In this document: piece by piece, positions 297 through 33,894 of the stretch
Numbering within the stretch: position 1 is the first letter of the stretch
Layout: each line of letters opens with the position of its first letter
NCBI GenBank assembly: GCA_035968315.1
Contig: JAVYIN010000002.1
Location: forward strand, 248,001 to 312,000
Length of the DNA stretch: 64,000 nucleotides
Direction of reading: 5' to 3'
Origin: Nitrospira sp.
Lineage (GTDB): Bacteria > Nitrospirota > Nitrospiria > Nitrospirales > Nitrospiraceae
Program-made: the position numbers and the translations under genes
The notes under the pieces: model-generated
Told to the model about the DNA's origin: nothing
Databases searched by the model: none
Seen by the model: the letters and a program-made list of their open reading frames with translations, nothing else

Positions 297-719
297 CTAC
301 TCCCCCATGATCTGAATAATGAGCTCGCGCGTGCGGGACCGCGTGTCGAAATCAACGACCACGATCTGCTGCCAGGTGCCAAGATGCAAGGCGCCTTCGG
401 AGAAGGGAATGGTCACGGACGGCCCTTGGAGCTGCCCGCGCAGATGGCTGTGCCCGTTGTCTTCGCCTGGATTTCTCGTATTGTGCTGCCAGGCCGGATC
501 GGCCGGCACCACCCGGTCCCAGAAGGCTTTCGTGTCGGCGCGAATGCCCGGTTCGTCTTCGATGACCATGATCGAAGCGGTGGTATGCTTCACAAACACC
601 GTGACGATCCCCGCCTCCAGCTCCGACTCGGCCAGCGCAGACTGCACCGCAGCCGTCAGGTTCTCGATGTGCGAATCGCCCCGCATGTTCACGTGCAACG
701 CGACGGTCTTCACAGCCAT
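297..719 (-). CDS. yjbQ: YjbQ/UPF0047 family protein
   Basis: A 140-residue protein when started at ATG 719, one base after the upstream HD gene's stop. A longer in-frame start at 833 would lie inside that gene and is unlikely. Family signatures are visible: HTTASI near residue 46, a G-HSHLRG-L-G stretch, and LGTWQQIVVVDFD followed by Arg near the C-terminus. The family forms small beta-sheet trimers. Some members show weak thiamine-phosphate synthase activity, but the physiological role is unsettled. Co-transcription with an HD-domain protein and a DegP-like protease gives no clear pathway link. Confidence 0.88.
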   Translation of the reverse strand: MAVKTVALHVNMRGDSHIENLTAAVQSALAESELEAGIVTVFVKHTTASIMVIEDEPGIRADTKAFWDRVVPADPAWQHNTRNPGEDNGHSHLRGQLQGPSVTIPFSEGALHLGTWQQIVVVDFDTRSRTRELIIQIMGE

Positions 720-720
720 G

Positions 721-1587
721 TCAGCACTCCATCTGACGAAGGAACCGGCGCTCCGATGGAGAGAGCCGGCAACCCCGCGCTTCTTCCAACACCCGGTCAA
801 ATTCGCCCTTCGAGGCCAGGCCCCGCAGCGCACCCATCACCGCGTGGCTCAGAATGCCTTCCTGCTGCAGCTTGGCGAGATAGGCGAACGCGTCGGCCAG
901 CGTCTCCTTCTTCCGCACATAATAATCGCGCCCGCGCTGTTGGTTGCTGTAGGCCTCGAACTGTTCGCAGGCGACCAGAATTTCCGCCAGCTGTTTCACC
1001 CAGGGTTTCGCCGATGCCAGCCGCTCGGGATAATAGTAGTAGAGCATCACCTGCTGCATCCAGGGCAGCCAGGTGATCCCCATATTCTTGATCGCGGGCC
1101 GGACCGCCCGCAGGCGGCGCGCCAGCCGCCGCGCGTAGCCCAGCCGCATTTCCACCTGCTCCTTCGCCCAAGGAGTCACGGCGATCCCGGCCGCTTCAAG
1201 GTCCCGCCGATATCGCGCGAGGAACGCCTCTGTCTCCCGTCCATAGGTGGTGCCAGGGTGGACGGCACGCCACTCGCGCGGCCTGGTCGGAATGCCCCGC
1301 TCTTTGGCCCATGACCAGATAGATCCAAACAGTGTTCGGTCAAGACCCGCCCGCCCCAGGTCGTGCAGCAGACAGGCGATCTGATAGGACCGCACCCGAT
1401 CCGGATCGTGCCCCAGCGATGCGGCCACGGCCGCACACATGCGTGCCGTCCGCACGGCATGCGGCCGATCGTAGCCGCGAATGATCCGCCCGGCTTTGTG
1501 AGGGTGGGGGTAATCGTAGAGCCGCATCAGTCCCGCCACCAGTTGGCGAGGGATTACAAGCGGCGCCGATGAACGAGCAATTGGCAT
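721..1587 (-). CDS. HD-domain protein (putative metal-dependent phosphohydrolase)
   Basis: This 288-residue soluble protein carries an HD signature: His43 in RPHAVRTA, then His75-Asp76 in ACLLHDLGRAG. These are metal ligands in nucleotide and signalling phosphohydrolases. The GYP motif of cyclic-di-GMP phosphodiesterases is absent, so that activity is not indicated. The C-terminal half is Arg/Tyr-rich and not recognised. The annotated ATG at 1587 is used; Met21 is an alternative. It is the first gene of a three-gene operon with yjbQ and a DegP-like protease, and is divergent from the HIT gene across about 130 bp. The substrate is unknown. Confidence 0.75.
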   Translation of the reverse strand: MPIARSSAPLVIPRQLVAGLMRLYDYPHPHKAGRIIRGYDRPHAVRTARMCAAVAASLGHDPDRVRSYQIACLLHDLGRAGLDRTLFGSIWSWAKERGIPTRPREWRAVHPGTTYGRETEAFLARYRRDLEAAGIAVTPWAKEQVEMRLGYARRLARRLRAVRPAIKNMGITWLPWMQQVMLYYYYPERLASAKPWVKQLAEILVACEQFEAYSNQQRGRDYYVRKKETLADAFAYLAKLQQEGILSHAVMGALRGLASKGEFDRVLEEARGCRLSPSERRFLRQMEC

Positions 1588-1702
1588 AGGTGCAAGAAAA
1601 CGAACACCATACGAGTCGCCAGAACCGGGCGCAGAATATCGTCGAGTGCCCAGGGTGTCAAGGCGACAGCACCAGCGGCCACTCGCTCAATCGATCGAAC
1701 TT

Positions 1703-1711
1703 TGCTATGCT
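1703..1711 (+). promoter_or_regulatory. Extended -10 promoter for the HIT gene
   Basis: TGC followed by TATGCT forms an extended -10 element. The -10 ends seven bases before the ATG at 1718, implying a leaderless transcript. No good -35 is seen, which is typical for extended -10 promoters. Confidence 0.5.
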
Positions 1712-1717
1712 CGGCGC

Positions 1718-2146
1718 ATGAATGATCCCCAATGCAAAGCCTGTTCTGGCACCTGGCCGAGAGCCGACCACTTCATCGCCGACCTCGGGCTGACCCGGGC
1801 CTATCTCCATGACGATCAATTCTTTTCCGGCTGGACCGTACTGGTCTTTTGCCGGCATGCAACCGAGCTCTTTCACCTGGCACCGACCGAGCGGATGCAG
1901 TTGATAGAAGAAGTGACCCTGGTTGCCAAAGTCCTGAACCAGGTCTACGAACCACGAAAAATCAACTACGAATTGCTGGGCAACCAGCTCCCACACATTC
2001 ACTGGCATCTCATCCCCCGCCTCGCGAATGATCCTACCCCGCTCGAACCGGTGTGGCGGGTGCCGCATGAGCCGGTGCTTCGATCAGGTCCCGACCTCCA
2101 GCACACAGTCCAACGCCTGCAAGAGGCCCTTCAGAAGGCCTGTTAA
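1718..2146 (+). CDS. HIT-family nucleotide hydrolase/transferase
   Basis: A 142-residue protein with the histidine-triad motif H93-I-H95-W-H97-L near the C-terminus. The middle His of such a triad is the nucleophile attacking the alpha-phosphate of nucleotide substrates. A Cys pair near the N-terminus (C6, C9) may bind zinc. The start is placed at ATG 1718 rather than an in-frame ATG at 1646. The family homology begins there, and a -10 box lies exactly seven bases upstream. It is monocistronic and divergent from the HD operon. The substrate (Ap4A-like or AMP-conjugate) cannot be decided. Confidence 0.88.
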   Translation: MNDPQCKACSGTWPRADHFIADLGLTRAYLHDDQFFSGWTVLVFCRHATELFHLAPTERMQLIEEVTLVAKVLNQVYEPRKINYELLGNQLPHIHWHLIPRLANDPTPLEPVWRVPHEPVLRSGPDLQHTVQRLQEALQKAC

Positions 2147-2256: not shown

Positions 2257-3516
2257 ATGCGTCATCGATTGGTGTTCGCGGCCCTCTTGTCCCTCTGCTG
2301 TCTTGCGCGGGTTTCCGTCCAACTCTCTTTCGCACAGCCACAAGAAACCGACCCGTCACCCGTGCTCGAGATCCCGCCGCCGCCTTCAGAATCGCCCACT
2401 CCTCCGCCACAGGTGGAAGAGCGCCAACTCCCTGAACCTCCGGCGCCCACACCTGAGGACGCCGTGACCCTCCTCGGGGAATTGCGCAACGCCGTCCGTC
2501 TCTCGCCCGGTAACGCGAGCGCCCGGCTGAACCTGGCGCAAGGGCTCTCCCGCATCGGCGACCTGGATGCCGCGCTCGACGAATGCCGTGCCGCCATCGC
2601 ACTGGATCCGAAGAACGCCTTCGCCCATCTGCAACTCGGCGTCACGTTGATGGCCAAACAGGAGGGACGCGCCGCCGCCACCGCCTTGATGGACGCCCTC
2701 CTGCTGGATCCCACATTGACGCAGGCCCATTACAATCTCGGCAGCGTGCACTACTCGCTGGGCCATCTACCCGCCGCGATCCAGTCCTATCGGCGGGCCT
2801 TGGAACTGCAGCCCAACTTTCCTGACGCCCGTTACCGGCTCGCGCTGGTCTTGAAGCTGACGAATCGCCATCAGGAGGCGGCCCAGTTCATGGAGGAGGC
2901 GGCGGCCGGCGGCATTCCGCAGGCGCAGTTCTTCACCGGCAATGCCTATCGCAACGGACAGGGTGTGGAGAAAAATCCCGCCAGGGCCATCAGCTGGTGG
3001 ACCCGCGCGGTCGAATTCGGCCACCCACGGGCGGCGGAATCCCTCTCGCAACTGCGCCGCCAGGCCCTGTCACCGGAGCAGCCGGAGCGCCGACGGAAAG
3101 ACGCGCTCGACGCCTTCAGGCAATATCGTGACTCTCTCTGGACAGACTATCCGAACGCGGCGCGACACGATCCGAATGACTCGCTGGGCATCGCCTTGCT
3201 CAAGACAAGCGAATCACCCGACAGCGTCACGGTCCTGCTGCACGAAGCCTTGGCGCTGAGCGAACCAGCGCAGGCCGAGTTGGCGCGCCTCTATGAGACC
3301 GGCCTCGACGGCCGCCTCACTCCATTCGACCCGCGCATCCTGGCCTGTTTTGAAACCACTGCGGCCGACGGCTTCCTGCCGGCCAAAAAAGCGCTGGCGC
3401 GCATCTACGGCATAGGCCTCGGCGTTTCAGCGGATGCACAAAAAGCCAAAGCGCTGCTGAAGGGCCTCCCGAAGCAAGACGCGAAACTCATCCTGGACGA
3501 AATCGCCGGACGATAG
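2257..3516 (+). CDS. Exported TPR/Sel1-repeat protein
   Basis: A 419-residue protein. The ATG at 2257 is preferred over an in-frame ATG at 2203 because GGAGGG lies just upstream and a signal peptide (hydrophobic about residues 5-22) follows directly. A Pro/Glu-rich linker (about 35-70) leads into three or four TPR units (about 75-210). Sel1-like repeats follow, for example AQFFTGNAYRNGQGVEKN and a second cluster near the C-terminus. Such proteins act as scaffolds in the periplasm or at the membrane. The next gene, a membrane-bound CHASE2/sigma-54 activator, begins 9 bp downstream, so the two are probably co-transcribed and may share a signalling path. No enzymatic motif is seen. Confidence 0.85.
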   Translation: MRHRLVFAALLSLCCLARVSVQLSFAQPQETDPSPVLEIPPPPSESPTPPPQVEERQLPEPPAPTPEDAVTLLGELRNAVRLSPGNASARLNLAQGLSRIGDLDAALDECRAAIALDPKNAFAHLQLGVTLMAKQEGRAAATALMDALLLDPTLTQAHYNLGSVHYSLGHLPAAIQSYRRALELQPNFPDARYRLALVLKLTNRHQEAAQFMEEAAAGGIPQAQFFTGNAYRNGQGVEKNPARAISWWTRAVEFGHPRAAESLSQLRRQALSPEQPERRRKDALDAFRQYRDSLWTDYPNAARHDPNDSLGIALLKTSESPDSVTVLLHEALALSEPAQAELARLYETGLDGRLTPFDPRILACFETTAADGFLPAKKALARIYGIGLGVSADAQKAKALLKGLPKQDAKLILDEIAGR

Positions 3517-3525
3517 TCATTCACC

Positions 3526-6165
3526 ATGCTCGACCCTGCACGCCTCTGGCGACAATTTCTCGGCTCTCCCTGGCTCCAAGCCGGTGCCATGGGATCGCTC
3601 GCCACCCTTCTGGCCTTCGGGCTGTGGGCCGCTGCCCCGGCCACATTTGCGACCCTCGACTGGAGCGCCTACGATCTCTGGCTCAGCCGCCGCGCCCCCA
3701 TCCCCGTCAGCCCCTCCCTCCTCATCGTCACGCGCGACCCTGCCAGCGAAGCGGAGTTCGGCACCGGCCCCTGGGACCGGGCCATCCTCGCCCGCCTGCT
3801 GACCAGCGCGCACGAAGCCGGAGCCCTGGCTCTCGGCCTTGACCATCGCCTCGACCATGCCAGCCCGGCTCAGCGCGGCGGAGCCGCGAGCGATGCCTTG
3901 CTGCTGGAAGCCCTCAGCAGCGCCGCCCCCGTGGTCATGGTGCACAGCGCTGACGCGGCCCTGGCGTCGGATGCCGCCCTGGCCGCCCAGCTCTCAGTCA
4001 CGGCCCATCCCGATCATGTCGCACGCACTGTGCTGGCTTCGTCACCCGATGACCCATCAGCCGTCCCGGCTTTCGGCATAGCGCTCTACGATGCGTTTCA
4101 AAAACAGGTCTCGCCGGTACGCCCCCGTCCTTCCCCAATAGGGGCCGGATCGCTCTTGGTCAATTTTGCCGGCAACGGCACGCTCGCCTCCTTCCCGACT
4201 GTGCCACTGTCAGCCGTGTGGGGCGCGATCGAGCAGCACGAGAACGCCCGACTCACCGAGTGGTTCAACGGCAAGGTGGTCGTGTTTCTGCCGAACCAGC
4301 TCACGGGAGGCAACTGGCTCTTGCCCACAGGGCACAGCGTTAGCGGCCAGATCGTCCATCTCCATGTCTTGAACATGCTGCTGACCGATCAACGCCTCTG
4401 CCAAGTCGGCGCAACCGGCCGCTTCCTGGTGACGCTGCTTGTCGCCAGCCTGGCAGCCTGGCTCCTGCTGCAGTTTCGCGGGGCTATCCACCTGCTTCTT
4501 GCCGCGGCGGCCATCGCCGTCTATGCCGGCTCCCTGGGCCTCTTACTTGTGGCGGCCCATCTGGTGCTGCCCCTTGCCATGCCCGTCACAGCCGCCGCGC
4601 TCGTCCTCGCAGGGACAACCATCTGGAGCCACCTCACCGCGCACCAGCGGCTGCTGGTGGTGGAGCAAGACATGTTGCGGGTGCAACAAGAAGCCGCCGC
4701 CGTGCGCGAAGCCCTGGTCTTGCGTGAAACCCGCGCGGACACGCTGCAAGAAGATCTCGCCGCCGCCAAGGCCTCCATCACCCACTCCGCCGGACAGCAG
4801 GCAGAACTGGCCAGATCCGCCGAGACTCTTCGCGCCCAACTCGCCGACGCCCAAGCGGCGGAAGAAGACGCCCGCAGGACCTTGGCGGAACTTGAACAGC
4901 AGCTGCACAACCTGCGCGCCGCCACCAGCGCTTCCTCCACGATCGCAGATGTGGAACTCGATCGCTGCCGCGACGAATGCCGCCACCTGGGCATCGTGAC
5001 TCAGGACGCCGGTCTCCTGCGCCTGTATCGGGATCTCAAGAAAGGGGCCAAGTCGCCGCTGACCGTGCTGCTGCTCGGCGAACCGGGCACCGGTAAAGAA
5101 CTCTTCGCCCGTGCCGTGCACCGGCTGAGCCCCCGCACGAGCAAGACCTTCATCGCCGTCAACATGGCGGCCATTTCACCCGAGTTGTTTGAGAGCGAAC
5201 TCTTCGGCCATACCAAGGGCAGTTTCACCGGCGCCACAGCGGACCGGCGCGGCTACTTCGAGCTGGCGAATCACGGCACGATCTTTTTGGATGAAATCGG
5301 CGACCTCCGGCTGGATCACCAGAGCAAGCTGCTGCGGGTGCTCCAGGAAAAGTCGTTCTACCGGGTCGGCGCGACCACCCCGACGACGGTGGACGTGCGC
5401 ATCGTCGCCGCGACCAATCGCGATTTGCAGCGCGGCGTCACCGAAGGCTGGTTCCGCGAAGATTTGTATTTCAGACTCACCGGCCTCGTGTTCCGGCTCC
5501 CGCCGCTCCGCGAACGGACCGGCGATGTGCCGCTGCTGGCAGAGATCTTCCTCGCGGACATCGCCGGCCAGATGGGAAAGCCAGTCCCCCAATTATCGAA
5601 TGAGGCCATGCGGGCGCTCGCCGCACAGGAATGGAAAGGCAACGTGCGGGAACTCCGCCATTGCCTGGAACAGGCCATCGCCTTGAACGACGGGCCGCTG
5701 CTCTCGAAAGAGTCCTTGCGCCTCGGCAGCGACAACACGCCCGCCACAGGCCGCCCCACACAGAGTCCGATGCTGCCCGATCCGGCCAGCGATGCGGCGG
5801 TGCTGAACTGCCTGCGGCAACAGGGGTTCGACATGCAAGCCACGGCCAACACCCTCGGCTGGGACCGCAGCACCGTGACGCAACGATTGAAGGGGCTCTG
5901 CTTCCAGGCGCTGGTCGAAACCAATGGGGACCAGGGGAAAGCAGCCAGCGCGATTGCAGGCGATCCAAGCCACCTGCGAACCGTCGAACTGAAGCTCATG
6001 GATTACCACAGCCACCTGCTGTCGGTGATCGACCCCTTCAAGACCGCCGACGAAGCCATCGCCGATTGCAAACGGCGCTTCAAGAACCTCCCCGACCGCC
6101 ACTTCAAAGCGGTGGAGAGGCTGGTGCGGCAGCACTTCACGGGAAACAGACGGGCATTCCGTTAA
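3526..6165 (+). CDS. Membrane-bound CHASE2-sensor sigma-54 activator (AAA+ bEBP)
   Basis: An 879-residue fusion. An N-terminal membrane helix (about 17-37) is followed by an extracytoplasmic CHASE2-like region (about 45-290). Three more helices (about 300-365) and an Ala/Glu-rich coiled coil (about 375-470) lead to a full sigma-54 AAA+ module. That module shows Walker A GEPGTGKE (518-525), the sigma-54 contact loop GSFTGA (565-570, Ser for the usual Ala), Walker B IFLDEIGD and a sensor II GNVRELRH. Two Fis-like helix-turn-helix segments follow (about 770-792 and 802-823). CHASE2 is usually joined to kinases or cyclases; here the sensor is wired straight to transcription. It should open sigma-54 promoters in response to a periplasmic cue. 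Its stop overlaps the stop of the convergent HTH gene. Confidence 0.88.
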   Translation: MLDPARLWRQFLGSPWLQAGAMGSLATLLAFGLWAAAPATFATLDWSAYDLWLSRRAPIPVSPSLLIVTRDPASEAEFGTGPWDRAILARLLTSAHEAGALALGLDHRLDHASPAQRGGAASDALLLEALSSAAPVVMVHSADAALASDAALAAQLSVTAHPDHVARTVLASSPDDPSAVPAFGIALYDAFQKQVSPVRPRPSPIGAGSLLVNFAGNGTLASFPTVPLSAVWGAIEQHENARLTEWFNGKVVVFLPNQLTGGNWLLPTGHSVSGQIVHLHVLNMLLTDQRLCQVGATGRFLVTLLVASLAAWLLLQFRGAIHLLLAAAAIAVYAGSLGLLLVAAHLVLPLAMPVTAAALVLAGTTIWSHLTAHQRLLVVEQDMLRVQQEAAAVREALVLRETRADTLQEDLAAAKASITHSAGQQAELARSAETLRAQLADAQAAEEDARRTLAELEQQLHNLRAATSASSTIADVELDRCRDECRHLGIVTQDAGLLRLYRDLKKGAKSPLTVLLLGEPGTGKELFARAVHRLSPRTSKTFIAVNMAAISPELFESELFGHTKGSFTGATADRRGYFELANHGTIFLDEIGDLRLDHQSKLLRVLQEKSFYRVGATTPTTVDVRIVAATNRDLQRGVTEGWFREDLYFRLTGLVFRLPPLRERTGDVPLLAEIFLADIAGQMGKPVPQLSNEAMRALAAQEWKGNVRELRHCLEQAIALNDGPLLSKESLRLGSDNTPATGRPTQSPMLPDPASDAAVLNCLRQQGFDMQATANTLGWDRSTVTQRLKGLCFQALVETNGDQGKAASAIAGDPSHLRTVELKLMDYHSHLLSVIDPFKTADEAIADCKRRFKNLPDRHFKAVERLVRQHFTGNRRAFR

Positions 6166-23090: not shown

Positions 23091-24095
23091 TCAGCTGGCC
23101 GGCTTCACTGCGGCCGGGGCTTCTTCGGCTTTAGGTGCGCGCAACGTACCCAGATAGGTCGTCACGGCCTTCGCATCGGCATCGCTCAACCCCAATGCCG
23201 GCATGCGCGTCTCCGGTTTCATGGCCTGCGGGTTCTTGAGCCACCGGTAAATCCAGGTGCCGTTCAAACGGAATCCCGCACGATCCAAGGCCGGCCCGAC
23301 CTTCCCGCCTTCTTCGGCGATGCTATGGCAGCCATTGCAGCCGTACTTGTTCTGATAGAGGCGCTTGCCCAGCTCAACCTGCTGCGCCATCACTTCCGGC
23401 GTCATGGTCAAATCCGGGCGGGCCACGTTCTGGCCCTTGCCTGGCCGCATGGAGAAGTTATTGAGGCTCGCTTGCGCGGCATCGAGTTCCTTCTTGGCCG
23501 CCGCCATCGCCGCCTGCTCTTTGGCATAGAGGGACTCGTCCACTTCGGCTTCTTTCTTTTCTGCTTCCTCGCTGGCCTTCTTTTCCGCCGCCTCGAAAGT
23601 CTGCTTCGCCTGCTCGAATTTCTCCTGCGCCGTCTTCAAGCCTTCGGCCAATTCCTTCTTGCGCTCTTCGACTTTAAACTCCAGCTTCATGCCATGAAGG
23701 GTTCTGACATAGCCGACGATCGACCAGATCTCATCCTCGGAGAGGGTGTACTTGAAGGTCGGCATGGTCGGCACGGCAAAGTCGTCGTCGCCGATTTTAT
23801 CCCCGCCCGGGCTGGTGTCCTTCATATCGCGGGAAATGGTATTGAAAATATCTTCGTCCTTAAAGGTGCCCATTTCCGACTTATTCGAGAGGTCTTTCGG
23901 CTTGGGGTCTGGCATCGAGGACCAATTAAAGCCCTCGTTCTGCCGTCCGTTTTCACCGTGGCAATGCATACAGTAGTGGGCGTACAACTCCTGCCCCTTC
24001 TTCTGCTGCTCATTGGCACAACCGCCTGCGGTCATCGCCCAGATCCCGATCAGGCCGGCGACCGTCCCGATGACTTGTAGTCTTGCCGCCTTCAT
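23091..24095 (-). CDS. Diheme c-type cytochrome with coiled-coil linker, lipoprotein-like
   Basis: 334 residues from ATG 24095, which overlaps the upstream gene's stop (ATGA); longer in-frame starts are rejected. A signal ends in AGGC26 (weak lipobox). The first haem site is C42-MHC-H46. A charged Lys/Glu/Ala coiled coil (about 145-210) follows, then a second haem site C253-NGC-H257 with a distal Met in PETRMPALGL. It is the last gene of the 11-gene respiratory operon and probably carries electrons between the membrane complex and soluble partners. The long coiled coil between haems is unusual. Confidence 0.9.
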   Translation of the reverse strand: MKAARLQVIGTVAGLIGIWAMTAGGCANEQQKKGQELYAHYCMHCHGENGRQNEGFNWSSMPDPKPKDLSNKSEMGTFKDEDIFNTISRDMKDTSPGGDKIGDDDFAVPTMPTFKYTLSEDEIWSIVGYVRTLHGMKLEFKVEERKKELAEGLKTAQEKFEQAKQTFEAAEKKASEEAEKKEAEVDESLYAKEQAAMAAAKKELDAAQASLNNFSMRPGKGQNVARPDLTMTPEVMAQQVELGKRLYQNKYGCNGCHSIAEEGGKVGPALDRAGFRLNGTWIYRWLKNPQAMKPETRMPALGLSDADAKAVTTYLGTLRAPKAEEAPAAVKPAS

Positions 24096-24925
24096 GCTGT
24101 CTGCCCTTTCTTCAATTTGCGGATCAGGACAAACTGAAACCCTAGGGCCAGCGCCGCTGCGAAGGCCGCATAGTAGTAGGCTGAATAATCCGGCGGAGCT
24201 TCGGCGCGGAAATACCACCAGGAAGAGACCGCCTTCTGAGATCCCTTTTCCACGATTTCGCCCGCGCCGTCTTTCCGGCCATCCCAGACCGCAAAGGAAA
24301 TATTGATAAACCCGCCTGGCGTAATCTGTGTATCTTCCGCAGCATGCTCCGTCGAAAGCGGACGGGAGAACACCACTTTCCACGTTCCATTGGCATAGGC
24401 CGCCTTGGCCTTCACATCCTGATGGCTCTGGATTTTCAAGGTCCCGAACCCCTGGGCGTTCATATCCACGCCCTTGTCATCCTTGTTCTTCCAATACCAG
24501 ATGTTGACCGGCCCCCCTTCGACCTGGGCCATGGGCTGCCCGTGGGCGAAGTGCGCTTTTTTATCTCCCACCATGAACTGCAACGCTGCGGCATCGTCAG
24601 GATCCTGGCTCGGGTCGGCATATTCCAAGAGAATGGCCACCTGTGTGCCATCGTGCAACGCCCGGACGGAAAGATCTTTGACCGTCACTTCTTGAATGCG
24701 GTTCGGCCAATGCACCTGGGGCGACATCGGGAACGTCGCCGGTTTCGCGCTGCTCCACACGGCCGCATTAGGATCATCGACAGGCAATGCGCCCTTGACC
24801 ATCGGCGCGCTGACCGACACGCCCTCCTGCGCCATGCTGAGCGTCGCTCCACCGAGGAGCAATGCGGCCGTCACCGCTACGCCCCCTCGCATGACCCACT
24901 GCCTCATTCGTTTTGCCGGTTTCAT
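24092..24925 (-). CDS. Haem-b binding gamma-subunit-like protein (EB_dh / NxrC-type)
   Basis: 277 residues with a signal peptide (about 12-32) and one C-terminal helix (about 252-270). The centre has the haem-binding beta-sandwich signatures of the ethylbenzene dehydrogenase gamma/DMSO-reductase-linked family: PANRIQEVTVKDLSV-like N-part, VAILLEYADPSQDPD, then ANGTWKVVFSRPL and INISFAVWDGRKDGAGE. In Nitrospira, candidate NxrC subunits belong to this family. No catalytic molybdenum subunit is in the window. Here it sits in a quinol/cytochrome operon, so it may serve as a haem-b electron relay. The assignment as NXR subunit is an inference. Confidence 0.78.
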   Translation of the reverse strand: MKPAKRMRQWVMRGGVAVTAALLLGGATLSMAQEGVSVSAPMVKGALPVDDPNAAVWSSAKPATFPMSPQVHWPNRIQEVTVKDLSVRALHDGTQVAILLEYADPSQDPDDAAALQFMVGDKKAHFAHGQPMAQVEGGPVNIWYWKNKDDKGVDMNAQGFGTLKIQSHQDVKAKAAYANGTWKVVFSRPLSTEHAAEDTQITPGGFINISFAVWDGRKDGAGEIVEKGSQKAVSSWWYFRAEAPPDYSAYYYAAFAAALALGFQFVLIRKLKKGQTA

Positions 24926-26358: not shown

Positions 26359-28224
26359 TTAGCTCTGCTTGTCCAATGTCGGTGAACCGCCGGCCATTGC
26401 GGGCAATGCCCCATGGCCCATCTCGTCTTTCCCATGACCATCTTTTCCGGCCTTCGCCTTGTCGCCCATCGTCGCCACCCAGAAAATGAACGCCACGATC
26501 ATGCAGAAGAAGAAGGTGTTGGCTGCCATCAGCGCGGCCGCATAACCCAGCGCGGGAGAGAATGCATACTGGGAGGAATCCCGCATGACGCCGTATACAT
26601 GCCAGTGCACGCGGGATGAGGAGCGGGCATAGCCCATCAGCGTCATCAGCAGAATCACCATCACCGCATTGAGCACCAGGGAGTAACCGGCGCGCGGCGG
26701 CATCTTGCCCCACACCATTTCCGTTGTCGTCTTCGCGCTCTTCAAAATGGCCGAGGTCAACAGGGTAAAGGTCACCAGCACGAAGAGCACGATGCCGACC
26801 TGCGACGTGGAGAAGTAATTGATGCGGATAATGGCCGGCACAAAATACCCGTACACACCCAGGGAGATCACCGCCAAGCCAGCGAGGACAAGAAGCGCGT
26901 TCATCACGGCCTTGGCCACGCGCGCCCATCCCACCGTCGCCTGCTTGCCGGCTTGCCAGTACATCAGAAAGCTCATGAACGTGACGAGCACCATGAGATT
27001 CGACACGGTCATTTTGGCCGACATAACACCGAAGACGCCCAGGAGGGGATGGTGCGTGCCACCCATCTTTTGCGCCTCTTCCAGACTGGCCACAAGCGAA
27101 TGCGGCGTCATCCAGACTCCGAGACACAAGAGCAGGATCACCAGCATCGTCAAAATCGGCTTCTTATATTGGGCTTCAGACCCCGGAATGCGATGGGTAA
27201 TGCCCATCCAGAAATAATAGTTCGACCCGAGAAAGAGGACCCCGATGAGCATGGCTTGCAGGATGAAGAGCCAGGAGAGGAAGCCGCCCATCAACGTGAT
27301 GCCCATCTGCTGGTTATACTGATAAATTTCACGCATCAGCCAATAGCCGGCAAACGGCAACGGCAACAAGCCGAACACGCCGATGAAATTGCCGACATAG
27401 CCCATCCAATCATAGTGCTCACGCTCTTCCGGCCCCTTGGCGGACAAATACCGAATTCCCGCGTAGGCCCCGCAGATATAGCCGCCGAGCACGACGTTCG
27501 CGATCAACCGGTGAATATTGACCGGCCACCACGTTGGATTCCAGGTTGCCGCCCAGGCTCTCGCCAGATCCGACCCTTCCGCGATGACAACCGGACTCGC
27601 CTGGAACGTGGCCCAGGAGTTCGGGATAATCATGATGAAGAAGGCGAATACGTTGAGCATGAACCCCAGGAAAATGTGGAAGACTTTCCCCCGGCCTTCC
27701 GACATCGCATCCCATCCATACCAATACATATAGAGGGTGGCCGTTTCGAGCAGGAACAAGGCGCAATAGACCATGAACGACGGAAAGAAAATATCACTGA
27801 GGTAGGCCATGAGCTTGGGATAGGCCCCGATCAGGATGAACAAAAGAATTCCACCGAACAGCGCGGTCGTGGAATAGGCGGAACTGAGCAGCTTGGTGAA
27901 TTCTTTGGCCAGTTTGTCGTAGCGCTTTTCGCCGCTTCGCCATCCAACCACTTCGCAAAGCCAGGCGAAAATCGGCACACCCAGCACGAAGCCCGCGAGC
28001 AACAGATGCAATTGCGCAATGACCCACACCAAGTTCCGGCTTCCAACGAGAGGCACGTCCCGATAGGCGACAGCCGCGGTCGCGCCAGAATCCGCCGCCA
28101 ATCCGATAGCCGGAGCGATCAACGCCCCCGCTGCCACGACCCAGGCCGCCACTGCGGCGGGCGAATTGGCAAGGAGCCGAATAAGCTGTTCAATCATTCC
28201 ACGCCGTTGCATCATGGATATCAC
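26359..28224 (-). CDS. Cytochrome bd oxidase subunit I-like protein (second copy)
   Basis: 621 residues, about 14 membrane helices, longer than classical CydA. An eyeball alignment to E. coli CydA puts the haem b595 His in VIAQLHLLLAGF, Glu107 in LLETATLYMYWYGWD and His186 in VNIHRLIANVV. Glu99 appears replaced by a hydrophobic residue, and the quinol-binding Q-loop is not recognisable. CydB is absent. Such 'bd-like' proteins are characteristic of Nitrospira; their real activity is unsettled. The start at 28224 is used; other Met codons exist within ten residues. Next to a 357-residue membrane protein and cytochromes c. Confidence 0.85.
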   Translation of the reverse strand: MISMMQRRGMIEQLIRLLANSPAAVAAWVVAAGALIAPAIGLAADSGATAAVAYRDVPLVGSRNLVWVIAQLHLLLAGFVLGVPIFAWLCEVVGWRSGEKRYDKLAKEFTKLLSSAYSTTALFGGILLFILIGAYPKLMAYLSDIFFPSFMVYCALFLLETATLYMYWYGWDAMSEGRGKVFHIFLGFMLNVFAFFIMIIPNSWATFQASPVVIAEGSDLARAWAATWNPTWWPVNIHRLIANVVLGGYICGAYAGIRYLSAKGPEEREHYDWMGYVGNFIGVFGLLPLPFAGYWLMREIYQYNQQMGITLMGGFLSWLFILQAMLIGVLFLGSNYYFWMGITHRIPGSEAQYKKPILTMLVILLLCLGVWMTPHSLVASLEEAQKMGGTHHPLLGVFGVMSAKMTVSNLMVLVTFMSFLMYWQAGKQATVGWARVAKAVMNALLVLAGLAVISLGVYGYFVPAIIRINYFSTSQVGIVLFVLVTFTLLTSAILKSAKTTTEMVWGKMPPRAGYSLVLNAVMVILLMTLMGYARSSSRVHWHVYGVMRDSSQYAFSPALGYAAALMAANTFFFCMIVAFIFWVATMGDKAKAGKDGHGKDEMGHGALPAMAGGSPTLDKQS

Positions 28225-28241: not shown

Positions 28242-29243
28242 CTAGGGTGTTGCCGGAGCTTTCACTGGTGCCTTGGCGTCAGCAGGCTTAGCCTTGACGG
28301 CTTTCCCTTTATCTTTCTCTTTTTCTTTCGCCGCCTCTTCTTCCGCTTTCATCTTTTCAAGCGACTCGACCTGGGCAGCCAGCACCGTGATGGCTTTTTC
28401 GTCTTTATTCAAGGCCTCGACCGGTTTATACGGCGGCTGGGCTTTGACTTCAGGCTTCTTGCAGCACTCATGGGGATGCGGCGTGCTGACCGGCAGCGCC
28501 GACCAGAACAGCAGAGACAGCACCACCCCGATCAACGTAATCGCGGTCAGCATCAATCCTTGGTCGGCTGGCACCCGCATCAGGTCCCACCGGGTAATAA
28601 TGTCCTGATAGCTCTGACCGGTCGGCTGCGCCGATTGCGACGCGCCCTTGATCACCCGGCCGACCAATGCGACCCCGATGAGCAGCATCACCAGCAGCAC
28701 CCCCAATGACACGCTGCCCCAGAGGGTCAACTCAATGCCGATCTTCTCCGCCACGGGAACGGCTTTCAGCATCTCGGTTTCAAACAGCGCGTGCGATAGC
28801 GCGATCGAATTTTCGGTCACAAAACCAACCACAAACCAGAGGATCGGCATGTAGACCGCGCCAACCAGCGCGGTCTTGATCCAGAGCGAGAGCGCCAATC
28901 CATCCGGCGGCTCAAGCCGTAACTTTTCAAGGAATACCGTTCGAGACACCACCCCTATCGCCCAGATGTCGATGGGAATGCACAGAAGGAACAAGAGCGC
29001 AATTCCGAAACCTTCTCCGAGATGCGGTTCGAATGCCATGCTGAGAATCGGCATCGCGAAAACCGTCACGGGACTGGCGAGATACATGAGGAGGGCCAGG
29101 CCAATGCGCCCCTCGAAGTGCATCATGCCCAGAGCCAGAAAGAGCAGGGCAATGGCCAGCTTGATGGGGAAGCCGGTCCAAAACGCGGACCAGAGCACAT
29201 TCAATCCCAGCTTCAACGGAGTCATCGATTCTCGTTCCGTCAT
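28242..29243 (-). CDS. Polytopic membrane protein of the respiratory operon
   Basis: 333 residues from ATG 29243. About seven hydrophobic segments lie between residues 10 and 240. A charged C-terminal tail (Lys/Glu/Ala) follows a Cys-Cys pair in HPHECCKKPE. No known family is recognised. A CydB-like role is possible because two CydA-like genes lack a CydB, but the sequence shows no CydB motif. It lies between cytochrome b and the second CydA-like gene with gaps of 37 and 17 bp, so it is almost certainly a complex component. Confidence 0.8.
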   Translation of the reverse strand: MTERESMTPLKLGLNVLWSAFWTGFPIKLAIALLFLALGMMHFEGRIGLALLMYLASPVTVFAMPILSMAFEPHLGEGFGIALLFLLCIPIDIWAIGVVSRTVFLEKLRLEPPDGLALSLWIKTALVGAVYMPILWFVVGFVTENSIALSHALFETEMLKAVPVAEKIGIELTLWGSVSLGVLLVMLLIGVALVGRVIKGASQSAQPTGQSYQDIITRWDLMRVPADQGLMLTAITLIGVVLSLLFWSALPVSTPHPHECCKKPEVKAQPPYKPVEALNKDEKAITVLAAQVESLEKMKAEEEAAKEKEKDKGKAVKAKPADAKAPVKAPATP

Positions 29244-29280: not shown

Positions 29281-30396
29281 TTAATCCAGGAATTCCCGGT
29301 TGATAATGGCTGCAATGGTGAACAGCAGAATCATCGCCATGACCACAATCCAACCGATCAGGGCGATGGGACGCTTGAAAATATTCCGCTCCGGATCGCG
29401 ATCGATAAATGGCAGCGCGGCCAAGAGCGCCATGAATGCGCCGGGCAATGCCATCGCGCCCACGAACTGGCCGAATTCACCGCCGAACATCTTGAGGCGC
29501 AGCAATTGGAATAGGAACAGGAAATACCACTCCGGCTCAGGATGGTAATCACCGGGGTCAGGCGTCGCCTCTTCCAACAGCACGACCGGCTCCCAGAATG
29601 CCAAGGCGCAAATCGTGAGAAATACCGTCACCATCCCGACGATGTCTTTCCAAATCTGGCGCGGGAAGAAGTAGTCGGTCTTCGCTTTGATTTCTTCCGG
29701 CGTGCCACGGAACGGACCAGCAGGTCCTGCGGCGCGGAACAAGAAGATATGGAGTCCGGCAAGTCCCATCAGGCCGGCAGGAAGAATCATGACGTGGATG
29801 ACGAAAAACCGACTTAAGGTCATCTGCCCAGGCGTGGCTCCCCCCTTGAGGAACCGGGCCATAAAATCGCCGATGACCGGCGTCTTATCCATGATTTCGA
29901 CACCGACGGTCGTCGCCCAATAGGCCCGCTGATCCCACGGCAACAAGTAGCCGGTAAATCCAAAACCCATGACCAGGCCGAAGAGCGCCAAACCCACAAG
30001 CCAAATCAACTCACGAGGACTCTTATAGGCGCCCCAGAGGAAGACTTGCGACATATGGGCAAACACGCAGACCACCATGGCCGTCGATCCCCAGAAATGG
30101 TAACTGAGGAGGAACCAGCCGTAATCGACTTCATGAATGATGTACTGGGTGCTGGCAAAGGCGTGATCGGCGGTCGGCACATAGTAGAACATCAGCAGGA
30201 TGCCCGTGACGGCCTGCATGATGAAAATAAAGAGCAGAATTGAACCGAACACATAGGCCCAGCGGGAACCGCCGGGAACCGGCTCATTGAGCATCTTCGC
30301 CTGGATGGTCTTGAGACCAACCCGCTCATCGACAAACGCGATGACTTTTTCGAGTGCGGTAAGCCCGGTCGCTGAAGGCGGTGTCTGTTCCATCAT
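29281..30396 (-). CDS. Cytochrome b (b6-type) of the quinol-oxidising complex
   Basis: 371 residues, about eight helices. Haem ligands are H100 and H114, and H201 and H216, so the second pair has 14 intervening residues, as in cytochrome b6 rather than mitochondrial-type cytochrome b. The Qo-site motif PEWY is at 288-291. Both the four-helix b6 part and the subunit IV part are in one chain. Together with the Rieske gene it forms a menaquinol:cytochrome c reductase. The gene ends two bases before the next element; the Rieske gene is directly upstream (2-bp gap). Confidence 0.93.
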   Translation of the reverse strand: MMEQTPPSATGLTALEKVIAFVDERVGLKTIQAKMLNEPVPGGSRWAYVFGSILLFIFIMQAVTGILLMFYYVPTADHAFASTQYIIHEVDYGWFLLSYHFWGSTAMVVCVFAHMSQVFLWGAYKSPRELIWLVGLALFGLVMGFGFTGYLLPWDQRAYWATTVGVEIMDKTPVIGDFMARFLKGGATPGQMTLSRFFVIHVMILPAGLMGLAGLHIFLFRAAGPAGPFRGTPEEIKAKTDYFFPRQIWKDIVGMVTVFLTICALAFWEPVVLLEEATPDPGDYHPEPEWYFLFLFQLLRLKMFGGEFGQFVGAMALPGAFMALLAALPFIDRDPERNIFKRPIALIGWIVVMAMILLFTIAAIINREFLD

Positions 30397-30398
30397 GC

Positions 30399-31334
30399 TC
30401 AGATGATCCGAATTTGAGTTTTAGTGCCGGCCTTGAATTCCATGTCGATGATCTCCACTTCTCCCGTGGCCGATACTCTGATAGGCAGTGAATCGAGCGA
30501 CCGCGGAGCAGGCCCATCGAGCACTTTCCCGGATGCGTCGTAAATGCTCAGGTGGCAGGGACAGAGGAACACCTGGCCCAGGACTTTATGCTGACGCCAT
30601 TTATAGCCGCAGCCCAAGTGCGGACACTTGCCAGAAAATGCCACGAAGGGCACATCTTTCTTATTCGTCCAGACCGCCTTGCCGTAGGCGTCCTTAAACT
30701 CCAGGTCCTTGCCCTGGTACACCTTCTCCAACACCGCCGGCGTGGCCTTGAGAATCCACACATTCTTTTCGATTTCAGATTCCGGCATGTAGGCTTCCTT
30801 GACCTTGCGCTTATACTTGAACTGGAAGCCGATATCGTCCTGCTTGATCTTGCTGATATTGCCGACCTTCAGCCATCCATTATCGAATGGGGAATACATC
30901 GGCTTCATCAGATAGCGCAATACCGGGAACGCGATCGGCAACCCGATCAGGAACCCGATCACGTGCGTGAAATTCATGAAGAAAGTGCGGCGCTTGACGC
31001 TCTTTTCAAGCTCCGGGAACGGAACGAGCACTTCTCCGGGCGTGACATGCACCTTCTCTTCGAGATGGGCAATTTCCACTTCATGCGTGGTCACGTACTC
31101 ATCGCGCTTGAATGGCGGCAGCTCAAGGATATCCCCCGATGCGGCACGCAGCTCGACAAGACCCTCGGCGACCGACTGCACGAAAGTCATGGCCACCTGC
31201 CGCTCACCGCTGCCGTTCATCGAGACCACGATATGGCTGATCTCGTGCGAGAGCGGATCGACGATGACTCGCGTCACTTCTCCGATTTCACGGTCCGTTG
31301 CACGGACCTTGGATTTAAGTTTCGGCTGCATCAT
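30399..31334 (-). CDS. Rieske iron-sulfur protein fused to an N-terminal PRC-barrel domain
   Basis: 311 residues from ATG 31334, overlapping the upstream stop (TAATG). Residues 4-80 look like a PRC-barrel (SKVRATDREIGEVTRVIVDP and IVVSMNG). A single membrane helix (about 117-143) follows, then the Rieske fold: ligands C237, H239 in CPHLGC and C258, H261 in CPCHLS, with C242/C260 forming the usual disulfide. Classical Rieske subunits have only a short N-terminal segment before the helix, so this domain is an addition placed in the cytoplasm. It accepts electrons from quinol at the cytochrome b Qo site and passes them to cytochrome c. Confidence 0.92.
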   Translation of the reverse strand: MMQPKLKSKVRATDREIGEVTRVIVDPLSHEISHIVVSMNGSGERQVAMTFVQSVAEGLVELRAASGDILELPPFKRDEYVTTHEVEIAHLEEKVHVTPGEVLVPFPELEKSVKRRTFFMNFTHVIGFLIGLPIAFPVLRYLMKPMYSPFDNGWLKVGNISKIKQDDIGFQFKYKRKVKEAYMPESEIEKNVWILKATPAVLEKVYQGKDLEFKDAYGKAVWTNKKDVPFVAFSGKCPHLGCGYKWRQHKVLGQVFLCPCHLSIYDASGKVLDGPAPRSLDSLPIRVSATGEVEIIDMEFKAGTKTQIRII

Positions 31335-32140
31335 TACTTCATCTTGATGGGTTTCGGAGTGTTCACAGACGTGTTCTTGAATGTCGAGAGCCACGCCGCC
31401 AGCGCCTGCACATCCTTCGGCTCCATGAGATCCTTGTACTTGTCGGGCATCTTGCCCTTCTCGTACTCGGCATCGAAGCCTTCAGCCTTGTAGGCCTTGG
31501 GATCGAGAATCTTTCTGGCAATTTCATCCTGGGGAAGCAGCGTCCCGATATTATCCAGCTCGGGGCCGCGCTTCTTTCCGCCCTCACCCTTCAGCTTGTG
31601 GCAGTTATAGCACTCCTGGAGCTGCCACTGCTCCTCGCCCAGCTTTAACACATCGCCACCGGCCGCGCCGGTCGTGGCCACAGCTGCACCTGCTCCGCCG
31701 GCTTCCTGGCCCGCCGGTGCTTGAGCCGCGCCCAAAGCCTTGATGCGCTCGGTCAACTCTTTCGCCTTCTGATCGAGATCCTTCGCACGGGCAATTACTT
31801 CTTCAGCCTTCCAGGGATCCAAGAGATTCGGTTTCCCCTTCAGAAGCTTGACGATCTTCCCCTTTTCGTCCTCCGGATCATATTGCGGCCAGAGCGAGGC
31901 GCCGGAAATGAACACGGTGCAGAGCACGGCGTAAAACGCCAGCAAGGACACCAGCGCCTTGCCTCCGCTCATGACCTTCATCGTCGGGGCATCCAAGATC
32001 AAGAACACGATGGTGCCCAGCATGGCATACCCAAAGAAAAGCCATCGGAAGACAGGCGGAAAGTCGAACGCCATCGTGGCCATATAGAGGCCGGCGCCGA
32101 TCACGAGTCCGACGATAATCTTGATGATTGCCTTGCCCAT
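31334..32140 (-). CDS. Membrane-anchored monohaem cytochrome c
   Basis: 268 residues. Three hydrophobic segments (about 5-22, 31-49 and 61-80) are followed by a charged coiled coil (about 108-140), an Ala/Gly linker and the haem site C177-YNC-H181. A possible axial Met lies in KGKMPDKY. It precedes the Rieske gene with a one-base overlap (TAATG), showing tight coupling. It probably takes electrons from the Rieske protein. Confidence 0.9.
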   Translation of the reverse strand: MGKAIIKIIVGLVIGAGLYMATMAFDFPPVFRWLFFGYAMLGTIVFLILDAPTMKVMSGGKALVSLLAFYAVLCTVFISGASLWPQYDPEDEKGKIVKLLKGKPNLLDPWKAEEVIARAKDLDQKAKELTERIKALGAAQAPAGQEAGGAGAAVATTGAAGGDVLKLGEEQWQLQECYNCHKLKGEGGKKRGPELDNIGTLLPQDEIARKILDPKAYKAEGFDAEYEKGKMPDKYKDLMEPKDVQALAAWLSTFKNTSVNTPKPIKMK

Positions 32141-32190: not shown

Positions 32191-33894
32191 TTACTTGGCC
32201 CCTGCCGGAACTGCCTCGCCCTCATGCGCCTGCTCCTTTGGATGCGAAGCGCGCAGCGTGACAATGATCGCAAAACTGACGACCGCGTAGAACACCACCG
32301 TGATGCCGGTGATATACCAAGCCGAATAGGCCAGGGTCGGCGTGAACGATTCGGCCGTAAAGTCAGGCAGCAGGTTGTACGTATGGAAATACTTCCGCAG
32401 GAGCGAGCGAACGGCGCCCATCAGACCCATGGTCCAAATCGCGCTGAAGGCCAGGAAGATCAAGACAAACTGGGAGGCATAGTCGATCTTACCCCAGACA
32501 ATCGTGCCCTGCGTGACAGCCCGGTTGTAGATGATGTAGTTGACGACGGTGACGAACACCAGCGTAAAGGCCGCAGAGTTCTTCGCCGGCATCAAAGCCA
32601 GGAAGTTCCAATCGGACGGAAGCTCCAGTTCAGCAACCAGCTTGGCCCCGGTCGGCACGAACCCGTGCGGGGTCATCCAGATCGCATTTCCCACGACAAC
32701 CATCAAGAAGCCGATCTTAATGACGGTTCTCGACGAGACCGTGATGGGGATGAAGCGTCCGAGGACCGCCGGCGCCAGCAACATCGGCAACAGGAACATC
32801 AGCGATTTGGGATCAGGCGCCGGATAATCGGTCAGAACCTTGGTCATGACCAGCGGCAGAGCCACCATCACGATGGGCGCGAGGATCGTCATGCGAACCT
32901 TCTCCACCCCTTCGATCCGCTTCATGCTGAGCCAGATATAGTAGTTACTGGCCAGGAAGATCAGCCCGATCATCGCCCCCTGCATCTCAAAGAACATCGA
33001 GAGCTGGTCGGCCATCATGTACGGGCAAATGGACGCGTCGTAGTCGCAGAGCTCGTAGGCCAGCAAGTAGCCCATGAACGGGAGGAAGAGCAACGCGCCG
33101 ACTCCGATCATGTTTCCAACAAAGCCCATCCAGTCGTAATACGAGCGCTCTTCGTCCTTGGTCGAGCCCATATACATATAGGCGGCGATCAACCCGGCCA
33201 CGAATCCACCGAACGTTACATTCCCCACCAGGCGATGGAGATTCAGCGGCATCCAGCTGTAATTGAACATCTTGTCCCAGATCGTCGCCGTCGCCAAGAA
33301 TTCCGCCGGCGATACACCCTCGGCCTTGACCGGGGTATTCATGAACGACGTCGGACCGTCAATGACGAACAAGGTAATCGACCCGATCAGGTTCAACAGC
33401 ACACCCAGGGCAATATGGCGCGCCTTCTTGTTCCCCTTCCACGCATCCCAGGTATAAAAATACAAGTAGAGGACAATGGTCTCGCCGATGAACAGCAGTG
33501 GATAGATGACGGCGAAGACCATGAAGAAGTGGTTGATCAACCAGGTCGTGAACTGCGGATAGGTCGCCAGCAAGACAAATATGAAGAGACCGCCGGTCAA
33601 GGCCGTCATACTGTAGAGGATGACAGTAACCTTGGTGACTTCCTTTGCCAGCCGGTCATAGCGGGGATCCTGCTTGCGGTAGCCCAGCCACTCCGAGATC
33701 ACGACGAAGATCGGAGCGCCGAGAATGAATCCCGCAAACAGGATATGGAGCTGAGCGACGATCCAGACCGCTGTCCGATTCCCGGTGTACGGGAATTCCA
33801 CCGAGGGCGTACCCGGTGCCTGTGCATAGGCCGCCCCGCCGAACAGCGCCAGAAGCGCAAAGAGAACCATGAGACTGCGCTGCCATGTTTTCAT
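32191..33894 (-). CDS. Cytochrome bd oxidase subunit I-like protein (first copy)
   Basis: 567 residues with a cleavable-looking leader (ending AYAQA) and about 14 helices. It is a paralogue of the gene at 26359. Conserved positions by eye alignment to CydA: His in VAQLHILFAGF, Glu107-equivalent in IGETIVLYLYFYTWD and His186-equivalent in LNLHRLVGNV. The Glu99 position is Ile, and no Q-loop GRD-type motif is seen. Without CydB, its partner is unknown. It may be a terminal oxidase or a quinone-interacting electron-transfer module. Upstream and downstream genes are cytochromes c. Confidence 0.86.
   Translation of the reverse strand: MKTWQRSLMVLFALLALFGGAAYAQAPGTPSVEFPYTGNRTAVWIVAQLHILFAGFILGAPIFVVISEWLGYRKQDPRYDRLAKEVTKVTVILYSMTALTGGLFIFVLLATYPQFTTWLINHFFMVFAVIYPLLFIGETIVLYLYFYTWDAWKGNKKARHIALGVLLNLIGSITLFVIDGPTSFMNTPVKAEGVSPAEFLATATIWDKMFNYSWMPLNLHRLVGNVTFGGFVAGLIAAYMYMGSTKDEERSYYDWMGFVGNMIGVGALLFLPFMGYLLAYELCDYDASICPYMMADQLSMFFEMQGAMIGLIFLASNYYIWLSMKRIEGVEKVRMTILAPIVMVALPLVMTKVLTDYPAPDPKSLMFLLPMLLAPAVLGRFIPITVSSRTVIKIGFLMVVVGNAIWMTPHGFVPTGAKLVAELELPSDWNFLALMPAKNSAAFTLVFVTVVNYIIYNRAVTQGTIVWGKIDYASQFVLIFLAFSAIWTMGLMGAVRSLLRKYFHTYNLLPDFTAESFTPTLAYSAWYITGITVVFYAVVSFAIIVTLRASHPKEQAHEGEAVPAGAK

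Follow-up and report, generated by a model that had tools for sequence, protein, structure and literature searches.

The Rieske subunit of the only complex III in this Nitrospira-type genome carries a soluble domain of PRC-barrel fold ahead of its membrane anchor. This fusion gives a known subunit a new domain architecture, and it is real, conserved and unmentioned in the open-licence literature searched, where Rieske did not occur together with PRC-barrel (or PRC barrel) in any full text, nor Nitrospira together with PRC-barrel. The core subunits of complex III, a textbook enzyme, show little variation. The barrel is a fixed soluble domain on the cytoplasmic side of the Rieske subunit, in the sole complex III of this genome, and is without an assigned role in that literature.

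Within the window (the whole 64,000-nucleotide stretch of the Nitrospira sp. contig that was analysed), the fusion gene lies on the minus strand from 31334 to 30399 and encodes 311 aa, exactly where the first-pass annotation had placed it, while the plus strand at 30399-31334 is interrupted by a stop and not open. The start assignment is supported by an overlap, since the ATG at 31334 shares one base with the stop codon of the cytochrome c gene before it (TAATG). The gene, its parts and its neighbours are as follows, with the basis of each in brackets.

30399..31334, minus strand: PRC-barrel/Rieske fusion gene, 311 aa, start ATG at 31334 (ORF reading, Pfam, start overlap)
31089..31334, minus strand: domain of PRC-barrel fold spanning residues 1-82, with about six strands plus one short helix (Pfam, AlphaFold2, Foldseek, VIA-align, reciprocal profile)
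30993..31088, minus strand: conserved linker from barrel to membrane, residues 83-114 (alignment, dN/dS)
30891..30992, minus strand: twin-arginine signal anchor and membrane helix, residues 115-148 (hydrophobicity and alignment)
30402..30890, minus strand: periplasmic Rieske head, residues 149-311 (Pfam, solved Rieske chains, model)
30609..30626, minus strand: cluster motif 1, CPHLGC, residues 237-242 (sequence and alignment)
30552..30563, minus strand: cluster motif 2, CPCH, residues 258-261, followed by LSIYD (sequence and alignment)
29281..30396, minus strand: cytochrome b, 371 aa, the constant downstream partner (Pfam, locus survey, genome search)
31334..32140, minus strand: membrane-anchored cytochrome c, 268 aa, upstream, one-base overlap with the Rieske start (Pfam, locus survey)
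32191..33894, minus strand: cytochrome bd-like oxidase subunit I homologue, 567 aa, same cluster (Pfam, locus comparison)
26359..28224, minus strand: second cytochrome bd-like subunit I homologue, 621 aa, same cluster (Pfam, locus comparison)
24092..24925, minus strand: alternative NXR-gamma-like protein, 277 aa, same cluster (named by analogy with alt_nxrC_1 of N. moscoviensis)

The first-pass annotation had read a PRC-barrel before the membrane helix and proposed an HMM comparison of the N-terminus together with fold prediction. The HMM part fell short, as Pfam matched PRC at residues 10-52 with 18.5 bits (E 0.002 for the whole library) against a curated PF05239 cut-off of 21.2 bits, and a genome search with the Pfam PRC model at E 0.001 did not pick up the fusion gene of the window; a remote homologue (L113) exceeded the cut-off at 21.4 bits, and 8 of 20 diverse family members matched PRC at E 0.1. 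The fold prediction stood. Residues 1-112 were folded alone because the anchor and linker of the full-length model were poorly modelled (mean pLDDT 71.6, pTM 0.47) and its structure search gave only Rieske-fold proteins among the best 50 matches listed. From 53 sequences, AlphaFold2 returned a domain model with a pLDDT of 88.6 and a pTM of 0.83, in which residues 9-62 form six strands and residues 66-70 a helix. The best 50 Foldseek matches listed for this model against the PDB were all PRC-fold proteins (best E 4e-4), including 3htr at that value, 1pm3, reaction-centre H chains, archaeal PRC/CdpB proteins and one RimM, and the highest query TM-scores among them, up to about 0.59, belonged to reaction-centre H. 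The latter was also the best VIA-align match (Z 8.8, 82 residues, 2.8 A), at a Z that common arrangements reach as well by the tool's own note.

What we regard as the strongest sequence evidence for the fold came from a reciprocal profile test. A profile from an alignment of 20 diverse N-termini (A4) was searched in 8 genomes and reached five non-Rieske places at E 1.7e-4 to 4.5e-3, and the frames at all five carry PF05239 over its cut-off. Against PDB sequences the three best matches of A4 were likewise PRC proteins, at weak E values of 0.029-0.059, and we rejected a sequence-only link to solved PRC structures as standalone proof, being too weak. The single-lineage profile A3 had unrelated best matches (YceB lipoprotein, vinculin, Nad7m), and its E value for reaction-centre H was 1.4; sequence similarity to this subunit was not significant (E about 0.8-1.7). 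Residues 1-82 are confirmed as a PRC-barrel fold, at more than chance, and the contrary idea, that the region is not of this fold or that the start is misplaced, feeds on the Pfam shortfalls named above but is close to refuted, as AlphaFold2, Foldseek, VIA-align and the reciprocal profile agree on the fold, the one-base overlap with the preceding gene backs the start, and the N-terminal sequence is conserved and evolves under purifying selection. Stand-alone PRC proteins, which the N-terminal profile retrieves, and RimM share the fold and differ in having no redox head joined to it; one other PRC match exists in this genome and looks RimM-like, a name judged from sequence and context.

Pfam recognised the Rieske head with 36.7 bits (E 4e-9), and the protein shows the marks of a bc/b6f-type Rieske, namely CxHxGC and CPCH motifs, a twin-arginine anchor and an adjacent cytochrome b, with the cysteine and histidine cluster ligands invariant over 20 diverse sequences; the equivalog cut-off of the proteobacterial-type model TIGR01416 was missed (57.6 of 97.4 bits). 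A single strong hydrophobic segment, at about residues 117-147, follows the twin arginine at 115-116. Since the Tat pathway is known to take Rieske proteins as signal-anchor substrates (PMC5449189), the barrel, which precedes the anchor of an exported head, should remain in the cytoplasm; the cytoplasmic placement already suggested in the first-pass annotation thus agrees with signal-anchor logic. Extra sequence before the Rieske twin arginine is also described for actinobacterial QcrA (PMC5449189), in which it consists of two additional membrane helices (three in all) instead of a soluble barrel, and the fusion has one strong hydrophobic segment where QcrA has three helices. As a separate observation, the residue after the last cluster ligand is L and not G in the window protein, with a possible effect on the potential.

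The constant companion of the fusion is cytochrome b. Across 100 loci (L026-L125, a few being the same genome from two collections), the PRC-type Rieske immediately precedes cytochrome b in 97; two of the three exceptions stop at a contig edge (L041 and L070), and in the third (L121) the Rieske is followed by a bd-like gene. The membrane cytochrome c occurs in 92 of these loci, and 95 have a bd-like gene close to the Rieske. When 12 window genes were searched in the remote-family loci L110-L113, only Rieske and cytochrome b were found, with no bd-like gene, cytochrome c of 268 aa or NXR-like gene nearby, and Pfam scans of selected frames in remote-family loci revealed no shared cytoplasmic enzyme. 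In L110 and L111, the two scanned, cytochrome b bears a C-terminal cytochrome c. The window genome is near-complete and holds one cytochrome b and five Rieske-domain frames, only one of which, that of the window, is bc-type, and the other four look like soluble ferredoxins or an oxygenase; the fusion and its cytochrome b are therefore the sole complex III here, next to two copies reported for N. moscoviensis (PMC6606698). Between cytochrome b and the second bd-like gene, positions 28242-29243 encode a 333-aa membrane protein with no Pfam match at curated strength, matches to which were found in loci of families f1, f2 and f3, with none in the f4, f8, f9 and f13 loci examined.

The fusion is co-inherited with one cytochrome b clade. 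On a tree of 46 cytochrome b rows (26 with PRC, 20 without), a single change of the PRC label is needed, and the main PRC clade of 19 rows has a support of 100/99. One or two origins of the fusion are possible, because the branch joining family f22 to the other PRC rows reaches a support of only 69/31; long branches occur among the non-PRC rows. The tree covers rows of at least 300 aligned residues, with L155 and L167 (stops), L121 (no cytochrome b) and the duplicate or cut loci L132, L133, L134, L143 and L144 set aside. At the presumed place of the b6f heme ci cysteine, none of the cytochrome b rows listed has a cysteine, with or without PRC, so no PRC-specific change on the Qi side was found.

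Among 395 Nitrospirota genomes, drawn evenly from a larger group, the fusion proved to be a fixed lineage trait, and the survey of Rieske proteins that the first-pass annotation had called for bore out its statement that classical Rieske subunits are without such a domain: no such domain is present in the other Rieskes examined from the phylum, and chains of solved Rieske structures matched the head only. A4 matched in 171 genomes, or 169 after removal of G225 and G097, whose matches are unrelated PRC proteins; the 169 are profile matches, a subset of which had N-termini read individually or aligned over the full length. Counted from the A4 match table, the fusion occurs in 138 of the 143 sampled genomes of the window's order. 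Within the class, the families f8, f9 and f13 together add 7 genomes with a profile match; beyond the class, such matches fall in 2 genomes of f19, 1 of f26 and 21 of f22, the last being partly circular because A4 contains L110, itself an f22 member. The N-terminal regions of the f22 members (L110, L142, L145, L148-L151) fit the pattern, and taken alone the f22 N-terminus is weakly linked (PRC 12.5 bits; hhalign against A3 at 15.7% probability, P 0.0017).

Within the order, the misses are G012, G347, G360, G041 and G384. The first three are without both the PRC-type Rieske and its cytochrome b, with assembly gaps possible; G041 is without the PRC-type cytochrome b and carries a pair of the CIII_2 type; and in G384 the PRC-type Rieske is cut by a contig end, in a genome that also holds the CIII_2-type Rieske L139. 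G012, a 99% complete genome of the same genus, has neither a PRC-type Rieske nor any cytochrome b match, which reflects either loss of complex III or an assembly gap. Non-fusion Rieskes in the loci examined have 2-61 residues of open frame before the twin arginine, and L136/L144 (91) and L173 (96) have longer open frames that include sequence before a later methionine, whereas PRC-type frames have it at 113-163; N-termini were judged where the stretch held a Rieske (not so in L134, L138 and L141) with a twin-arginine match (absent in L133, L140, L164 and L169). Plasmids gave four records matching the Rieske head only, none covering 80%, and viral contigs held no relative. The distribution refers to Nitrospirota, as the contig scan gave close relatives only, and we claim no absence from other phyla.

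The locus L035 of N. moscoviensis resembles the window closely, having in the same order genes for the Rieske and an unfused cytochrome b, for a pair of bd-like oxidases, for cytochromes c and for the alternative NXR gamma subunit, and its Rieske bears the same N-terminal domain at 85% identity overall. By gene content, we match this locus to CIII_1 of that organism, for which the complex III core subunits have been described, a III-IV supercomplex has been proposed and an expression higher than that of CIII_2 is given (PMC6606698); 'PRC' is absent from the main text of that paper. Short Rieskes of the CIII_2 type (L135, L139) share the head, the twin-arginine anchor and the place beside cytochrome b, but differ in their short N-termini before the twin arginine, in a cytochrome b frame that runs to about 445 aa and carries a cytochrome c motif at its C-terminus, and in their cluster motifs, which are CTHLGC and CPCHGS as opposed to CPHLGC and CPCHLS in the window (30552-30626).

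Conservation is distributed unevenly along the protein. Over 20 diverse sequences, R115, R116 and F118 (RR-x-F), directly before the helix, are invariant, as are G100 and P107 of the linker, whereas G18 and V36 are the only invariant positions of residues 1-82. The barrel is under purifying selection, yet it is the least constrained part: across 12 close sequences (66 pairs, of which those with dS between 0.1 and 2 were kept), the median dN/dS was 0.11 for the barrel (60 pairs), 0.052 for the linker (47), 0.045 for the anchor (55) and 0.040 for the head (51), and L111 is 28% identical to the window protein in the barrel against 44% in the head. The 20 diverse sequences have no invariant cofactor ligand set in the barrel, and the suggestion in the first-pass annotation that the domain senses redox or ionic state found no support. 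No conserved set of proton-path residues was found.

Following from these observations, we propose that a bc-type Rieske subunit would have gained an N-terminal PRC-barrel, which would stay on the cytoplasmic (N) side while the twin-arginine pathway moves the folded head to the periplasm. The barrel would pack on the N-side of its own cytochrome b, near the exit of the Rieske helix and the Qi side, and would thereby serve the complex as an integral subunit on the N-side, lending it stability and shielding its quinone-reducing side. We regard the barrel as a component of the complex because cytochrome b is its sole constant companion and the fusion persists without the rest of the cluster nearby; contact between barrel and cytochrome b is what we infer, and we hold this packing at about an even chance. 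That it also shapes quinone or proton access on the Qi side may be so, but is less likely than the packing itself.

The model for such a role is the H subunit of the purple bacterial reaction centre, whose barrel lies beside one membrane helix, on the cytoplasmic side and C-terminal to the helix. This subunit caps the N-side of the reaction centre (PMC8239185), the proposed counterpart being its barrel over the QB side. The fusion has the same fold, likewise beside a single membrane helix and on the cytoplasmic side of a quinone-reducing complex, but its barrel is N-terminal to the helix and its complex is a different one, so that the likeness is one of fold and membrane side, not of membership. 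Several points speak against a cap: the barrel is the least constrained domain, its similarity to H is insignificant in sequence, the order of barrel and helix is reversed, neither conserved proton-path residues nor, in the cytochrome b rows listed, a PRC-specific Qi-side change turned up, and fold alone does not show function. A convergent recruitment of the H cap fold by the Nitrospirota complex III, which would shape proton uptake or quinone access at the Qi site, is an unlikely extension. Nitrite oxidisers must also run complex III in reverse to make reduced quinone. If the Qi-site reading were true, the barrel in these organisms would be a tuning device for a bidirectional complex III; the fusion also makes it possible to test how quinone enzymes of respiration and photosynthesis are linked, and the barrel is a clear target in any future structure of a Nitrospira complex III or III-IV supercomplex.

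Other roles can be imagined for a domain in this place. It could be a docking site tethering complex III to a cytoplasmic or peripheral partner, such as a quinone-feeding dehydrogenase, as the first-pass annotation had also offered; PRC domains do occur in protein-protein settings, such as CdpB1/CdpB2 and RimM with ribosomal protein S19 (structure titles), and the higher evolutionary rate of the barrel relative to the other parts could be compatible with a partner that changes, but the loci surveyed bring no constant neighbour except cytochrome b and the frames scanned in remote families no common cytoplasmic enzyme, which makes a tether rather improbable even though its partner may be encoded elsewhere. 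A further notch down in our estimation, the barrel could organise the cytoplasmic face of a III-IV supercomplex by pairing with other barrels, with the bd-like oxidases or with the alternative NXR subunit. Such an assembly has been proposed for the N. moscoviensis cluster (PMC6606698), PRC-fold domains dimerise (8onw and 8qzo, by their structure titles), and a bd-like gene is a frequent neighbour; the fusion nevertheless occurs in L110-L113 without these cluster genes, and therefore does not depend on that cluster. Still more doubtful is a latch or check in assembly, by which the barrel would act in cofactor insertion and Tat export or guard the anchor from over-translocation or proteolysis: it lies before the invariant twin-arginine motif, and unusual N-terminal parts precede the Rieske twin arginine in actinobacteria too (PMC5449189), but other Rieskes of the phylum manage with short N-termini, including L139 of G384 alongside a PRC-type gene. 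Compared with these, packing of the barrel on its own cytochrome b is the reading we prefer.

Two further frames deserve mention. In family f23, locus L166 encodes on its minus strand (2540-3844) a 434-aa frame that joins an SdhB-like part (Fer2_3 at E 5e-34, Fer4) to a Rieske domain (E 1e-12) and adjoins a cytochrome b frame, representing a second kind of N-terminal Rieske fusion. In the Nitrospirota family f16, locus L181 holds a frame, also of 434 aa (478-1782, minus strand), in which PRC is combined with MgtE_N and CBS domains.
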